From Gottschalkiaceae bacterium SANA (GTDB lineage Bacteria; Bacillota; Clostridia; Tissierellales; GPF-1), in contig AP028876.1 of NCBI GenBank assembly GCA_036323355.1, positions 2,542,001-2,606,000 of the forward strand: 64,000 nucleotides of DNA, written 5' to 3'. The notes under the pieces were generated by a model. It saw nothing but the letters and a program-made list of their open reading frames with translations, did no database searches and was not told the DNA's origin. The position numbers and the translations under genes were made by a program. Shown in pieces: positions 5,447-11,291 of this stretch (positions within the stretch are counted from its first letter, which is position 1; every line of letters starts with the position of its first letter).

Positions 5447-6223
5447 CTAGGCTCGGTTGCGATCATAAATAATCTTCAACCCGTCCAGAGTCAAGCGCTT
5501 GTCGATCACTTCAATGGTTTCCGATGCCGTAGCGATCATAGAAGCCAAACCGCCTGTCGCCACGACCTTAGCCACAGAACCGCCCAGTTCTTCGATCATT
5601 CTCTCTACGATATAATCCACCAAGCCAACCTGGCCGATGGAAATGCCTGATTGAATGCTTTCCGTTGTATTGCGACAAATCACACGATCCGGCATGCGAA
5701 TTTCAACCTTGGGTAATTTTGCCGTTCCTTCGATCAAGGCATCACTGGCGATTTTAATACCAGGTGCAATGGTTCCCCCCAGATAATCACCCTTTTCGTT
5801 GACGGCACAAAAGGTAGTCGCCGTACCAAAATCCACAATCACCAAGGGGCCACCGTATTTTTGGAATGCCGCTACCGCATTGACAATCCGATCCGCCCCC
5901 ACCTGCTTGGGGTTGTCGTAGTGAATCAGCATGCCGGTTTTGATTCCGGGTCCAACAATCAGCGGACGCATTTCAAAATATTTGATGGTCATGGCTTCCA
6001 ATGAATACATGATCGGTGGCACAACGGATGAAATGATCACGGCATCCACTGATTCAGGATCCAATCCATCATGCTGAAATAATTGTGTGATCAAAATCCC
6101 AAATTCATCGCTAGTCTTCTGACGATCCGTTGCGATTCTCCAAGATTTTTTTAAATAAAGACCTTCTTTTTTATATAATCCGAGGGTAATATTTGTGTTC
6201 CCCACGTCAATGACTAATACCAT
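5447..6223 (-). CDS. coaX: Type III pantothenate kinase
   Basis: First step of coenzyme A synthesis, ATP-dependent phosphorylation of pantothenate. 258 residues in the ASKHA fold with DVGNTN at the N-terminus, GADRIVNA and DFGTATTF, all diagnostic of CoaX. Two in-frame ATGs exist (6229 and 6223); 6223 is preferred because the GGGGAG site sits directly against the first one and 6 bases from the second. The gene overlaps the end of the upstream ECF S component by 17 bases, suggesting translational coupling of uptake and activation. Confidence 0.95.
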
Positions 6224-6974
6224 TTGCATCTCCCCTATTCTTTAATAATGCCAAGACCACGTATGTTGATACAATCATACCTACAATCATCTCTGGAACA
6301 CCATTGGTCATACCAATGGAAATGATCATTTTCCCAGCTGTATCTGGATCTGCCCCAAGGGTTTCAGCAAAGCGTCTCCCATAGAACAAGTAGATCATGG
6401 TTAATACACCCAGTGTATTGGTTAGTGTGCCAAAAATCCCAGTCAATGCGATCTCAGCCGCATTTTTTGAAGCAAATCGCCAAACCACAACACCCAAAAT
6501 CACCAACAAAACCAACAATAGACTCTGGAAAGCCAGGGCTGCTGCTGTTCCAACTTTTAATAAATCTACCCATCCCTTAATCAAATATGCCATCGCCCCT
6601 AACCACATCAGACTAGAAACGACTAGCGTACCTTTCTGCCCAATCTTTGAAAATCCTCGATAGACATAGTAAGAAACCACCCCGATTAAAATCCTGGGCA
6701 GTACCGACACCAAGGGATTCAAAAACACAAAGGAAATTGGAGTTGGATTCGTAACGGCTTGAAAGATACTAAACAGACCAAAAATCAAACCGACAATTGC
6801 GCCGACAATCGGTCCTTCCAAGATCGCACCGATAATCACCGGTATATGCATAATGGTTGCCCGCGTTGGTCCGATGGGGATAAAACCCAAGGGCGTCAGT
6901 CCCAAGACCATGGAAATCCCGCCTAGTACACCAATAATAGCCATTCTTCGTGTTGTTAACCACTTCTTATTCAT
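6207..6974 (-). CDS. ECF transporter S component, probably for pantothenate
   Basis: Membrane substrate-binding subunit of an energy-coupling-factor vitamin transporter; it would share the general EcfAAT module encoded elsewhere. 255 residues with about six hydrophobic helices and the S-component N-terminal pattern (charged start, then [12 protein letters not shown]). The assignment to pantothenate is inference from its overlap with coaX; the family itself is broad. AAAGGAG ribosome site before ATG 6974. Confidence 0.8.
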
Positions 6975-6988
6975 TTTTTCTCCTTTCG

Positions 6989-7002
6989 CTTCGGTTCCGA
7001 AG
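6989..7002 (-). promoter_or_regulatory. Perfect 14-bp dyad in the ECF-coaX leader
   Basis: CTTCGG/CCGAAG with two central bases, lying just upstream of the AAAGGAG site of the ECF gene. It may be a leader hairpin or a protein-binding site. No established family matched by eye. Confidence 0.35.
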
Positions 7003-7028
7003 ATACCGCGCTACGAATTATTGTAGAT

Positions 7029-7075
7029 CAAAAAACGATAACCATCTAGTGCTTTCGCTCCCATTGATTATCGTC
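7029..7075 (-). terminator. Terminator of the methylmalonyl-CoA operon
   Basis: Outer stem ACGATAA/TTATCGT (7 bp) enclosing a structured loop with a GAAA tetraloop, followed on the minus strand by six T. It lies just after the last gene of the operon and before the ECF-coaX-dus unit. Confidence 0.65.
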
Positions 7076-7093
7076 CTTATTATATGAGTATTT

Positions 7094-7804
7094 TTACTTG
7101 CTTGCAACGTCAAGATATTGGATTGCCTTGATTTTTTTCCCGAAAACTCGAATCTTTCGTCCTGAGTCTTGTTTGACGATCAAATCGCCTTGATCGGTAA
7201 TTTCTTGCACGTGTCCCTCAATCTCTCGGTCAACGAGGCTAAATTTCAGTTTGCGATTGATCAGATTCGATGCAGTCCGATAGGCGTCCAAGCACCCTTG
7301 ATGGTTTCCCTCGCGCATGCTTTGATCCGCAAGATCCAAGGCTGATAAACATTCCTTAAGAAAGGCTTCCTGTTCATCCTCGGACCAGGTCTCGCCAAAG
7401 TCGAATTCTACCGATACAATCACATATACCCATCTGTCCTTAATCTTTTGAACCAAGCAATTCGCTAGTCCAAAGACAAGACCGTCTCGAACAAAGGAAT
7501 ATGGCCAGCGAAAACTTGCTTGAAAGGCTTCTAGCACCGAAGCCATGGCCCCCATCATCACGGGTTCCACTTCCTGTTTTTCCTTGAAAGGAAGGGTCTC
7601 TGGCTTTAAAACGACACCGAAACTACAAGGGTGATCAAATACACCCAGGTTTGTTCGAATCCGATCAGCAAAGATCACCGTTCCATCGATCCCTTTTACC
7701 CCCTGCATCGATCGACATTTTTCCGTCATAGAATCCAGAGTATCGTAGTAAACCACGGACTGGCCGACCCGATGAATAGGTTGTTTTAGGTCAAATTTTC
7801 TCAT
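7094..7804 (-). CDS. Divergent biotin-protein-ligase-like protein
   Basis: 236 residues with the shape of a biotin/lipoate ligase: the family pattern YYDxxDSM at about 19-26, a GTVIFADR strand, SFGVVLKPE, an RWP segment where the family has KWPND, and a C-terminal BPL_C-like barrel (GHVQEITDQGDLIV). However the ATP/biotin loop GRGRxGR is missing and replaced by a shorter stretch, and the Asn-Asp after WP are absent. It is the last gene of the decarboxylase operon, next to the biotin carrier subunit, so a dedicated biotinylation or biotin-handling role is plausible. Catalysis is uncertain. There is no N-terminal DNA-binding domain. Confidence 0.6.
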   Translation of the reverse strand: MRKFDLKQPIHRVGQSVVYYDTLDSMTEKCRSMQGVKGIDGTVIFADRIRTNLGVFDHPCSFGVVLKPETLPFKEKQEVEPVMMGAMASVLEAFQASFRWPYSFVRDGLVFGLANCLVQKIKDRWVYVIVSVEFDFGETWSEDEQEAFLKECLSALDLADQSMREGNHQGCLDAYRTASNLINRKLKFSLVDREIEGHVQEITDQGDLIVKQDSGRKIRVFGKKIKAIQYLDVASK

Positions 7805-7843
7805 GTCGTGCTCCTCTCGTTCCTCATTATATCATGGAGAGAA

Positions 7844-8980
7844 CTAAGAGAAAAGATTCAAGAGAATTCCAGCTGCAACAGCCGACCCGATTACCCCTGC
7901 CACATTAGGACCCATAGCATGCATCAATAGGAAGTTGGACGGATTCTCCTCTTGCCCTACCTTTTGCACAACACGCGCCGCCATAGGTACCGCAGAGACG
8001 CCTGCAGCCCCAATCATCGGATTCACTTTCCCGCCGGAGGTTTTGTACATGATTTTTCCAAAGAGCACACCCGCAGCTGTGCCAACAGAGAAAGCCATTA
8101 GTCCCAGTACGATAATCGCCAATGTTTTCACATCCAAGAAGACTTCCGCACTTGCTTTCGCTCCAACAGTTACCCCCAAAAGAATGGTTACAATCGGCAT
8201 CAAAGCTTTATTCGCTCCATCCACCAACAAGGGAACACGATTAGATTCCTTCAGTAAATTACCCAGCATCAACATCCCGATCAAGGGTGCTGCCGACGGC
8301 AGTAAAAGAACCGTAAAAAGGGTCACAAAGATTGGGAAAATAATCTTCTCCCGTTGTGATACCGGTCGCAATTGTTCCATCTTCACCTGGCGTTCTTCCT
8401 TGGTTGTCAGAGCACGAATGATAGGCGGTTGAATAATCGGTACCAAAGCCATATAGGAATAGGCCGCTAAAGCGATGGGACCCAAAAGATCAGGAGCAAG
8501 CTTGCTTGTCAAATAAATTGCTGTCGGCCCATCTGCTCCACCGATGATTCCGATTGCTGCTGCAGCTTTCGCTGTAAATTTTAAGGCTTCCACACCCATG
8601 CCACCCAACAAGATAGCGCCGATAAAAGCAAAAAAGATTCCGAATTGTGCTGCCGCGCCCAACAAAATGCTCTTTGGGTTGGCAATTAATGGTCCAAAAT
8701 CGGTACTGCTACCTACACACAGAAAGATCAATGGCGGATAAATGCCCAATTTTGTACCATAGTATAAATAATGTAAAAGATTTCCTTCCTCCATCAAATT
8801 GGCACCTGGCAGATTAACCAAGAGCATGCCAAATGCAATAGGAATCATCAAATAGGGTTCATAGCCCTTTCGAATCCCTAAATAAAGGAACCAACACGCC
8901 AATCCCAGCATAAAAACACTGCCAAGATCCAACTGATAAAAGCCCGTGCTTATCCAGAAAGCTTGTAAAATTCCACCCAT
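7844..8980 (-). CDS. mmdB: Methylmalonyl-CoA decarboxylase beta subunit (Na+ pump)
   Basis: Integral membrane subunit of the OadB/GcdB/MmdB family, which decarboxylates carboxybiotin and exports Na+. About 378 residues, mostly hydrophobic, with the conserved GGADGPTAIY segment (Na+/carboxybiotin site) and the closing AAGVSAVPMAARVVQK region. A GTG at 8989 is in frame, but ATG 8980 has AGGTGA at better spacing. Immediately follows the biotin carrier gene. Confidence 0.93.
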   Translation of the reverse strand: MGGILQAFWISTGFYQLDLGSVFMLGLACWFLYLGIRKGYEPYLMIPIAFGMLLVNLPGANLMEEGNLLHYLYYGTKLGIYPPLIFLCVGSSTDFGPLIANPKSILLGAAAQFGIFFAFIGAILLGGMGVEALKFTAKAAAAIGIIGGADGPTAIYLTSKLAPDLLGPIALAAYSYMALVPIIQPPIIRALTTKEERQVKMEQLRPVSQREKIIFPIFVTLFTVLLLPSAAPLIGMLMLGNLLKESNRVPLLVDGANKALMPIVTILLGVTVGAKASAEVFLDVKTLAIIVLGLMAFSVGTAAGVLFGKIMYKTSGGKVNPMIGAAGVSAVPMAARVVQKVGQEENPSNFLLMHAMGPNVAGVIGSAVAAGILLNLFS

Positions 8981-8989
8981 TCCGATCAC

Positions 8990-9397
8990 CTACTCCAAAT
9001 CCAACAGGGGTGCGTCCAATTGCACATTCTGTTGTTCTTTGACATAAATGCGACCTACAATTCCATCATTGGGTGCTACAATTTCATTTTCCATCTTCAT
9101 CGCTTCGAGAATGCATAAAACGTCTCCCCGCTTCACCGATTGATTCTCTGCAACTACAAGCTTAAGAATCGTTCCCGGCATTGGGGCTTTGATGGAAGTT
9201 GCTCCTGCTGATGCAACCGGCGCAACGTGCGGTGTCTGTGCAGGTTTAGGGGCTTGTGCTCTTTCTTTTTGCTGAATAACTTGTGCAGCTGGTCTTTTCA
9301 ACGGCTGTTCTATCGATTGTGTCGCTTGTCCCCCAACAAGTTCTTCAACTTCTACCTCGTATGCTACTCCATTCACTGTAATTCGATACTGTTTCAT
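8990..9397 (-). CDS. mmdC: Methylmalonyl-CoA decarboxylase gamma subunit, biotin carrier protein
   Basis: 135-residue carrier: short N-terminal domain, Pro/Ala/Gln-rich flexible linker (about 35-65), and a biotinyl domain with AMKMENE where Lys101 would carry biotin. It swings carboxyl groups from the carboxyltransferase to the membrane pump. ATG 9397 is chosen because GGAGGAG lies upstream and the longer reading frame has no homologous content. Confidence 0.95.
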   Translation of the reverse strand: MKQYRITVNGVAYEVEVEELVGGQATQSIEQPLKRPAAQVIQQKERAQAPKPAQTPHVAPVASAGATSIKAPMPGTILKLVVAENQSVKRGDVLCILEAMKMENEIVAPNDGIVGRIYVKEQQNVQLDAPLLDLE

Positions 9398-9407
9398 CGG
9401 ACTCCTC

Positions 9408-9737
9408 CTATACGTTCCCTTGATTTTGCCACATGATTTGTGTCTCTCCCACACGTCGGATCTTGCGGATCCGAATTGGATAAGAGGCGGTCTGATTGGC
9501 AAGAATTGCTGCGGTAATCACAGCAATTAATGCGGGATCATCCTGGGGTTGATCTTCTTCTGCAAGCGGTATTTGAGCAGCTGTAGCCACCGGCACCGCT
9601 TCTGGTTTAGGATCCGAAAAAAGCTTTTCGAAATAACCTAATAGAAATGCAATCGTTGCCAAGACTACAAAAACGACCCCCATGCTTAATAGGGTAACAA
9701 ACAAGGCTTGGCTCATGCTAATGTGTTCTCCAAACAT
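9408..9737 (-). CDS. mmdD: Methylmalonyl-CoA decarboxylase delta subunit (OadG-like)
   Basis: 109 residues: one N-terminal transmembrane helix (about 10-35), an acidic/proline linker, and a conserved C-terminal tail (IRKIRRVGETQIMW). This is the OadG/MmdD arrangement that anchors the carboxyltransferase to the membrane beta subunit. Lies between mmdA and mmdC with 9-10 base gaps. Confidence 0.85.
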   Translation of the reverse strand: MFGEHISMSQALFVTLLSMGVVFVVLATIAFLLGYFEKLFSDPKPEAVPVATAAQIPLAEEDQPQDDPALIAVITAAILANQTASYPIRIRKIRRVGETQIMWQNQGNV

Positions 9738-9746
9738 GTTTTCCTC

Positions 9747-11291
9747 CTATAATGGGCAATTGCCGTGTTTTTTTGCCGGATGTTTTTCTTGTTTTGTCTG
9801 TAGCATATCCAATGCGCTAATTAAACGTTGCCTTGTATATTGTGGTTCAATGATATCGTCCACCATGCCACGTTGTGCCGCCACATAAGGGTTTGCTACC
9901 GTTTCCCGATATAAATCAACCTTTTCCTGGCGAACCATAGCCGGCTGATCTGCTGCTTCAATCTCTTTTCTGAAAATAATATTCGCCGCTCCTGCAGGTC
10001 CCATCACAGCAACCTCAGCATTGGGCCATGCCAATACCAAATCGGCGCCCAAGGACTTGCTGCTCATGGCTACATAAGAACCGCCATACGCTTTTCTCAA
10101 AATCACTGAAATTTTTGGCACAGTGGCCTCACTATAGGCATAAAGCAATTTTGCGCCATGGCGAATGATGCCTCCGTATTCCTGTTGAATCCCCGGTAAG
10201 AAACCAGGCACATCAATAAAGGTCACCAATGGAATCTGGAAAGCATCGCAAAAACGAATAAACCGTGCGGCCTTGTCCGAGGCGTCAATATCCAATGTGC
10301 CCGCCAAATGTTTTGGCTGATTGGCGACAACGCCTGCAACCATACCACCAATGCGAACAAATCCCGTTACGATATTTTTCGCAAAATAGGGCTGAACCTC
10401 CATAAAACTGTCATGATCAGCGATGGTTTCAATAACAATTTTCACATCATAAGGCTTATTGGGATTTTCAGGCATTTGTTCATTCAAACTTGGGTGAAAT
10501 TTATTGATGCTGAAGCCCTCGGTACAAGGCGGCTTCTCCGTATAATTCGACGGCAAATAGGAAAGCAAGCGCTTGACTTGATCCAACGTTTCCTCGTCGC
10601 TGTTGGCCATAAAATGCGCTACACCACTCTTGGTGTTGTGACTCATGGCTCCGCCTAATTCCTCGGCACTTACAGTCTCTCCCGTTACGGTTTTAATCAC
10701 CTGGGGACCAGTAATAAACATCTTTGAGGATCGATCCACCATAAAGATAAAATCCGTCAAGGCCGGTGAATAAACAGCCCCACCTGCGCAGGGGCCCATA
10801 ATCACCGAAATCTGAGGGATCACACCACTGGCTATGGTGTTGTTGTAAAATATTTCTCCGTATCCGGAAAGAGCATCAACGCCCTCCTGAATACGAGCAC
10901 CACCCGAATCATTCAAGCCAATTAAAGGCGCGCCCATCTTCATAGCAAGTTCTTGAATATTCACAATCCGCTTGGCATGCATTTCACCTAAGGAACCACC
11001 AAACACGGTAAAATCTTGAGCAAATACATAAACAAGACGGCCTGCGACTGTTCCGTATCCAGTAACAACGCCTTCACCTGGCGCTTCCTTGGACTCCATG
11101 CCAAAGTTTGTGCAGCGGTGCTTAACAAAGGCGTTCAATTCAATAAAACTGCCTGCATCCAACAAATAGGCAATCCTCTCCCGCGCGGTCAACTTCCCTT
11201 GCGCATGCTGCTTTTCGATTCGTTTTTCGCCGCCGCCAAGTTCCATTCGTTTTCGTTCTGATTGATACCGTTCCATCATGGATTTTGTCAT
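9747..11291 (-). CDS. mmdA: Methylmalonyl-CoA decarboxylase alpha subunit (carboxyltransferase)
   Basis: 514 residues with two crotonase-like halves. It transfers the carboxyl group of (S)-methylmalonyl-CoA to biotin, leaving propionyl-CoA. Visible family blocks include GGARIQEGVDALSGYGEIF, GPCAGGAVYSPALTD and, in the second half, FIDVPGFLPG and RKAYGGSYVAMSSK. The epimerase gene 9 bases upstream and the beta/gamma/delta subunits downstream favour the decarboxylase over propionyl-CoA carboxylase; no biotin carboxylase gene is present in the window. Confidence 0.94.
   Translation of the reverse strand: MTKSMMERYQSERKRMELGGGEKRIEKQHAQGKLTARERIAYLLDAGSFIELNAFVKHRCTNFGMESKEAPGEGVVTGYGTVAGRLVYVFAQDFTVFGGSLGEMHAKRIVNIQELAMKMGAPLIGLNDSGGARIQEGVDALSGYGEIFYNNTIASGVIPQISVIMGPCAGGAVYSPALTDFIFMVDRSSKMFITGPQVIKTVTGETVSAEELGGAMSHNTKSGVAHFMANSDEETLDQVKRLLSYLPSNYTEKPPCTEGFSINKFHPSLNEQMPENPNKPYDVKIVIETIADHDSFMEVQPYFAKNIVTGFVRIGGMVAGVVANQPKHLAGTLDIDASDKAARFIRFCDAFQIPLVTFIDVPGFLPGIQQEYGGIIRHGAKLLYAYSEATVPKISVILRKAYGGSYVAMSSKSLGADLVLAWPNAEVAVMGPAGAANIIFRKEIEAADQPAMVRQEKVDLYRETVANPYVAAQRGMVDDIIEPQYTRQRLISALDMLQTKQEKHPAKKHGNCPL

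Follow-up and report, generated by a model that had tools for sequence, protein, structure and literature searches.

Biotin protein ligase (BPL, BirA) is a textbook enzyme whose active site is strongly conserved; BirA dimers use the biotin loop, and short class I BPLs without a helix-turn-helix (HTH) domain exist. By their titles, several PDB entries of the P. horikoshii BPL carry mutations at R48, R51, D104 or K111, and others describe complexes of this ligase with its carrier in the active-site mutants R48A and R48A/K111A (2ejg, 2ejf). The PF03099 scaffold also includes members that are unable to activate their substrate, the amidotransferases LipL and LIPT1, which are reported to move lipoyl groups between carriers (PMC7253636). 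Lactococcus lactis has two BPLs, BirA1 and BirA2, and both are reported as active ligases working through biotinoyl-AMP (PMC4861984).

The gene described here, D, was found in the window, the whole 64,000-nucleotide stretch of DNA that was analysed, which belongs to a genome (G000) of one contig with 3,490,293 bases and 97.5% completeness. D follows the genes of a decarboxylase sodium pump, with 39 bp between the oadB stop and the D start (Table 1). On its 5′ side and in the same direction lie, far end first, methylmalonyl-CoA mutase parts, a meaB-like GTPase, an epimerase, mmdA, oadG, mmdC and oadB, and on its 3′ side an ECF transporter S component, coaX, dus, greA and lysS. Seven genes of the locus, including D, were scanned against Pfam and NCBIfam, while the mutase parts, the meaB-like gene, the epimerase, dus, greA and lysS were named by reading their sequences. 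mmdA scored 887.4 bits against TIGR01117, under the model cut-off of 998.8. The listed open reading frame of mmdC (8990-9502) begins too early, at a TTG at 9502 inside oadG, and the likely start is the internal methionine of MKQYRI at 9397. The S component is probably PanT, a name taken from its linkage to coaX; a role for D as partner of a biotin transporter was dropped, the neighbouring S component not being BioY.

Table 1 Features of the D locus in window coordinates, and relatives with an oadB-linked birA
Feature	Position	Strand	Basis or remark
coaX, type III pantothenate kinase	5447..6229	-	PF03309 263.8 bits; NF009847 401.4 bits
ECF transporter S component	6207..6974	-	PF12822 93.7 bits, no BioY match
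Hairpin (7034-7075) and T-run after D	7028..7075	-	conserved in three genomes, terminator-like by eye, z -3.3 to -4.3
D, pseudo biotin-protein-ligase, no HTH domain	7094..7804	-	ORF, ATG start, 236 aa
C-terminal SH3-like domain of D, residues 185-230	7115..7252	-	region best recognised by sequence models; strands in model
Strand replacing K-x-x-G-x-L-x-E, D residues 107-119	7448..7486	-	without Lys in all three D
RWPYS (RWPSS in the other two D) replacing KWPND, D residues 99-103	7496..7510	-	alignments
Shortened, variable loop replacing biotin/ATP loop GRGRxGRxW, D residues 48-60	7625..7663	-	alignments
oadB/mmdB, carboxybiotin decarboxylase subunit beta of sodium pump	7844..8989	-	PF03977 512.9 bits
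mmdC, biotin carrier, AMKM biotinylation motif	8990..9397	-	PF00364 69.3 bits
oadG/mmdD-like small subunit	9408..9737	-	PF04277 59.8 bits
mmdA, methylmalonyl-CoA decarboxylase alpha (carboxyltransferase)	9747..11291	-	PF01039 679.3 bits
Genomes with oadB-linked birA	G009, G010, G011, G012, G013, G019, G025, G026, G027, G028, G032, G038, G039, G040, G043, G049, G052

The original prediction had placed D at the end of an operon encoding a biotin carrier, which agrees with oadB lying directly upstream and with the conserved hairpin and T-run after D. This element separates D from the S component and coaX and therefore fits expression of D together with the pump; it is absent from the list of a simple terminator scan (5 terminator-like sites against 1.1 expected, and 3 promoter-like sites against 1.7 expected). 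D may also be expressed independently of the pump, because a conserved TATAAT stands just upstream of its ATG; the promoter scan upstream of D gave no acceptable pair at this TATAAT. Between D and the S component (7028-7107, minus strand), a promoter-like TTGCAA-17-TATAAT is directly followed by the GNRA-capped hairpin and T-run in the three genomes, an arrangement that may act simply as the terminator of D or as an attenuator ahead of panT-coaX. Just before the start of the S component (6980-7010, minus strand), a conserved GGTATCTTCGGAACCGAAGCGAAAGGAG is identical in the three genomes and the adjoining bases vary. No Rfam family matched within positions 6900-7900 of the window.

We compared the place of D with that of birA in related genomes. 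Of 60 relatives, 17, distributed among six families (f8, f9, f10, f11, f12 and f18), had a BirA match and an OAD_beta match at most 3.1 kb apart on one strand, although the OAD_beta match was merely a fragment in three of the 17 (G010, G019 and G026). Eleven of the 17 regions, chosen for birA near oadB and drawn from five families other than that of D (f9 left out), were read, and all 11 had the gene order mmdA-oadG-carrier-oadB-BirA-coaX, with an S component (panT) between BirA and coaX in seven. The distance between oadB and BirA was at most 0.42 kb in eight regions and 1.0-2.9 kb in three, and the BirAs in this slot were of normal full length (326-342 aa). D therefore occupies the position of birA, since in every region read a BirA lies between oadB and coaX. 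The linkage is common, not universal: 43 of the 60 relatives, the three genomes of the genus included, had no BirA match that near oadB, and other relatives keep birA elsewhere.

Family models recognised D weakly, and none from Pfam or NCBIfam reached its cut-off. Of the two Pfam models that the original prediction had named as a check, BPL_LplA_LipB (PF03099) gave no match at E ≤ 1 and BPL_C (PF02237) a sub-threshold 19.5 bits against a cut-off of 21 (residues 192-217). NCBIfam birA_ligase (TIGR00121) reached 27.5 of the 83.1 bits of its cut-off (residues 144-222) and PRK08330 30.1 of 311. PDB BirAs ranked first for D but weakly (phmmer E = 0.049; E = 0.0084 with a three-row profile). Alignment of D with hhalign to seven full-length BirAs of the order gave a probability of 95.9% (E = 5.8e-9), with D columns 11-218 on 90-325, a region covering the catalytic and C-terminal domains of canonical BirAs; these seven BirAs were D’s own earlier weak matches and hence a favourable set. 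The profile-profile comparison with the genus’s own canonical BirA, in an alignment with fewer and closer rows, was weak (5.4%, E = 0.007).

AlphaFold performed poorly on the three D sequences alone (pLDDT 44.5, pTM 0.30) and reached pLDDT 77.6 and pTM 0.75 from 10 rows, consisting of the three D and seven BPLs from viral contigs. The seven were taken from eight loci, one of which (L058) was omitted as a near copy of another (L057), and three further scans of viral contigs gave no additional BPL, one of them retrieving a contig already known and the other two nothing. Foldseek and VIA-align searches with the 10-row model returned BPLs in all 50 matches listed by each, the best among those listed having Z 20.2 and rmsd 2.7 over 209 aligned residues. 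The 10-row model supports the fold yet is not independent of the sequence alignment, because the added BPL rows help shape it. Alignments and predicted structure agree on the BPL fold for D, comprising the catalytic and the SH3-like C-terminal domain, such that the original claim of a retained BPL shape holds in the profile alignment, the 10-row model and the structure matches at Z of about 20. The N-terminal winged HTH of class II BirA is not in D, which begins where the catalytic domain begins. A reading of D as a frame-shifted BirA was dropped, as there is no room before D for the HTH domain.

The active site was assessed by aligning the three D with 32 BirAs from the order (the genus’s three included) and the seven viral-contig BPLs. 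In all three D the GRGRxGRxW loop has lost its Trp and 7-8 residues and the remainder is rewritten; GIGIN is also lost, its Asn being Asp135. The partner of K183 depends on the alignment, being either a gap or D residue 113, and no Lys occurs at residues 110-115 in any D. Conserved columns were defined as those identical in at least 31 of the 32 BirAs from the catalytic domain on (n = 51), and all three D kept nine of them (17.6%; S25, G41, G54, P68, W100, P101, Y127, G206 and L208 in D numbering), the same rate at which at least two of the three D kept ordinary columns (26 of 148). The catalytic site of D is therefore no longer under special constraint. D also kept six of the 23 columns identical in all 32 BirAs and the seven viral-contig BPLs. 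Positions lost in at least two D were, in the numbering of the genus’s BirA, T91, Q113, G116, W124, S126, S135, K172, N175, D176, K183, G186, L188, E190, G204, G206, N208 and E316, with a Glu opposite E190 in one D. From spacing we infer that R48, R51, D104 and K111 of the P. horikoshii enzyme match R119, R122, D176 and K183.

These results bear out the original observation that GRGRxGR and KWPND are missing or altered, and the loss is common to all three orthologues. Judging from its sequence, D should be unable to form biotinyl-AMP, since the loop, the Lys and the Asn/Asp are all missing. A dedicated noncanonical ligase, one of the roles first suggested, is accordingly unlikely: the loop Arg and Gly residues, the Lys and the Asn/Asp are gone, a complete BirA is present, and MmdC is only one of several proteins in the genome with a biotin/lipoyl-domain match. 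We also considered that a standard catalytic site had been misaligned and that D is a working BPL, a reading with which the kept fold and the existence of short class I BPLs without HTH would be compatible; it is scarcely credible, as no GRGRxGR, KWPND or GIGIN occurs anywhere in the D protein sequence, the loop deletion is shared by all three D and the genome has a complete BirA.

Orthologues of D occur in G001 and G002, the other two genomes of the genus, with pairwise identities of 72-77%. A D profile matched in 19 of 249 genomes of the order, with full-length matches in the genus’s three only; the other 16 were weak and partial (E 9e-6 to 1e-3). Of these, 15 fell in open frames of 323-352 codons, the size of canonical BirA, and the frame of the last (G148) has 186 codons and contains a stop. 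Among 391 genomes of the class there were 26 profile matches and no further D, the window’s own being the only one at full length.

D is under purifying selection, with pN/pS of 0.250, 0.262 and 0.262 in the three pairs, compared to 0.04 for oadB, 0.06-0.07 for mmdA, 0.04-0.07 for coaX, 0.10-0.11 for the S component, and, near the D values in the same genomes, 0.16-0.20 for canonical BirA and 0.22-0.32 for oadG. The frame is intact in all three genomes at dS of 0.74-1.48. Neutral drift simulated at each of three divergences, set by the observed synonymous divergence (2000 runs each), gave on average 7.2, 8.7 and 9.6 stops where none was observed and mean identities of 18-39% compared to the observed 72-77%; the fraction of stop-free runs was 0, 0.0005 and 0. 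D is thus a maintained protein and not a chance open reading frame, because the simulation rejects neutral decay. A decaying birA remnant without function would be expected to have its task covered by another gene, to evolve faster than oadB or coaX and to be found in a single genus, all of which apply to D. However, this reading is already largely refuted and very improbable in view of the pN/pS values, the intact frames at these divergences and the near absence of stop-free neutral runs (at most 0.0005), and the sequences upstream and downstream of D are conserved as well.

Conservation within D is uneven. Of its 236 residues, 156 are invariant among the three sequences, with residues 1-50 the most conserved (44/50), including residues 17-50 (30/34), where the former SSTN and EQ strands lie. 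Other segments follow with 27/35 (62-96), 8/11 (138-148), 28/41 (97-137) and 38/64 (C-terminal, 173-236), and the old loop (51-61, 3/11) and a helix (149-172, 8/24) are least conserved. In the genus’s canonical BirAs, residues 172-210, from KWPND to GIGIN, are the most conserved (37/39), whereas their counterpart in D, residues 97-137, is about average for the protein. Three cysteines, C30, C60 and C116, are invariant in the three D.

The check for a second, canonical BirA proposed with the original prediction identified one full-length gene (C1:1458096-1459061, 322 aa) with the HTH region, GRGRRGR, KWPND and the Lys, adjoining uvrB and uvrA. One such gene is present, away from the D locus, in each of the three genomes of the genus, with 81-85% identity. 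In the window’s genome, four proteins matched PF03099 above the cut-off, namely canonical BirA and, judging from their sequences, three lipoate-ligase-like proteins (291-331 aa). Biotin/lipoyl domains gave eight matches at E = 2.4e-9 or better, MmdC being one, and three weaker ones; one match falls within a frame of 1152 codons, a length that suggests pyruvate carboxylase, a name given by size only. Since the genome has several biotin/lipoyl-domain matches and a canonical BirA, a general ligase is both needed and present. A second OAD_beta gene (G000:C1:376572-377894; L118) has a biotin-carrier-like open reading frame in front, and none of the four PF03099 matches is at that locus. In G002, a 70-codon open frame about 1.1 kb from canonical birA (G002:C12:56512-56703, minus strand; about 6513-6704 in L120) is 53% identical to the last 64 BirA residues and is perhaps a leftover of a duplication.

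D could regulate canonical BirA, either by pairing with it through the shared dimer sheet and thereby blocking repression, or by sensing the supply of biotin or biotinyl-AMP for the pump. D lost exactly the DNA-binding domain, a region that the genome’s canonical BirA retains, and two BioY matches (G000:C1:2875674-2876114 and 1515948-1516388) are possible targets. The biotin loop, which BirA dimers use, is nevertheless the most eroded part of D, and D follows the decarboxylase rather than birA or the BioY matches, which are away from it. We consider this role improbable.

The descent of D was assessed by tree and profile. The branch leading to D, about 10 changes per column away from every BirA, is too long for placement, and on this tree a position as sister of the genus’s own BirA was not rejected (p-AU = 0.229). 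The three-row D profile scored 11.1-35.9 bits on 29 other BirAs of the order, 27 of them drawn by the genus’s own BirA and not by D, compared to 3.5-8.2 bits on the genus’s own three. Scores of oadB-linked and unlinked BirAs overlapped; the best-scoring one (L085, the gene of L008) is unlinked to oadB but adjoins an S component. Outside the genus, the best match of its canonical BirA is 47% identical both in the order (G009, 306 bits) and beyond it (G388, 313 bits). We read D as the ancestral birA because the slot holds a normal BirA in other families and the genome’s canonical BirA is elsewhere. Most simply, the ancestral cluster birA became a pseudo-ligase once another copy had taken over its task, while an early duplication of birA with decay of the cluster copy fits equally. 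That D descends vertically from a gene in this slot is likely, a statement we hold somewhat less firmly than that of catalytic loss with retained function.

D is probably dead as a BPL and still functional, and as a whole the best explanation, to which we assign a probability of about 0.5, is a pseudo-ligase derived from the cluster birA that docks on the carrier. In this genus, the birA of the mmd-oadB-birA-(panT)-coaX cluster would have lost its DNA-binding domain and its biotin/ATP site, with biotinylation and any repression left to the second, canonical BirA elsewhere. D would keep the acceptor-docking side of the BPL fold and bind the MmdC biotin carrier domain while leaving it unmodified. 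It might serve as a holder or an assembly factor that offers the carrier to the working BirA or to the pump partners MmdA and MmdB, to the benefit of the decarboxylase. By analogy, a BPL with a damaged site may hold its carrier, as the titles of the R48A and R48A/K111A mutant-carrier entries in the PDB indicate. A docking or assembly role is favoured for this reason and because D follows the carrier genes and the hairpin fits co-expression with the pump. As the specific job of D, non-catalytic docking or assembly on the MmdC carrier is tentative, and the docking surface is not singled out by conservation, since residues 1-50 (44/50) and not the C-terminal part (38/64) are the most conserved. 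In a broader proposal, which we regard as doubtful, this ligase-derived protein would be dedicated to the pump and would handle its biotin carrier without ATP, either as a carrier-specific assembly factor or as a biotinyl transferase with a rebuilt site.

A new kind of active enzyme on the PF03099 scaffold would transfer biotin, or lipoate or octanoate, between carriers without ATP, perhaps via one of C30, C60 and C116. We know of no biotin relay between proteins. The invariance of the three cysteines and the good conservation of residues 17-50 are compatible with such a transferase, although the cysteines are weak evidence because only three close D sequences are known. In addition, PF03099 proteins without activation became amidotransferases in the case of LIPT1 and LipL (PMC7253636). 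The scaffold Lys is absent from D in either alignment, however, with none at residues 110-115, and the pocket stretch 97-137 is only average in conservation (28/41 compared to 156/236 overall), so that a transferase is improbable. Under docking on the carrier, a selected and apparently dead BirA copy at the pump’s birA position would be a natural separation of carrier binding from catalysis, and binding of D to MmdC would show a hand-over of carrier domains between ligase and pump partners. As an ATP-independent assembly factor or biotinyl transferase, D would to our knowledge be the first case of a non-ligase role on a BirA-derived scaffold. To label D a biotin ligase from its place among the genes or from the C-terminal match would be incorrect.

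Among the papers listed by searches of openly available literature, judged by titles and the beginnings of abstracts, we found no existing description of a selected pseudo-BirA in a birA slot. The closest relatives of D are the BPLs themselves, the class II BirAs of the order and the solved enzymes of E. coli (1bia), S. aureus (3rir) and P. horikoshii (1wnl), with which it shares the catalytic and C-terminal fold. Its gene also occupies the same slot as birA in the order, between oadB and (panT-)coaX, and D differs from BirA in having no HTH domain, GRGRxGRxW, KWPND, catalytic Lys or GIGIN and in falling below all family cut-offs. As with LipL and LIPT1, D would be unable to activate its substrate, but D lacks the scaffold Lys that they have, is linked to a biotin rather than a lipoyl carrier and has no known transfer activity. 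D and canonical BirA resemble BirA1 and BirA2 of L. lactis in being two BPL-fold proteins in one genome, whereas D has no recognisable active site. D thus belongs to a known fold family, of which a pseudo-BirA under selection at the birA position represents a variant.
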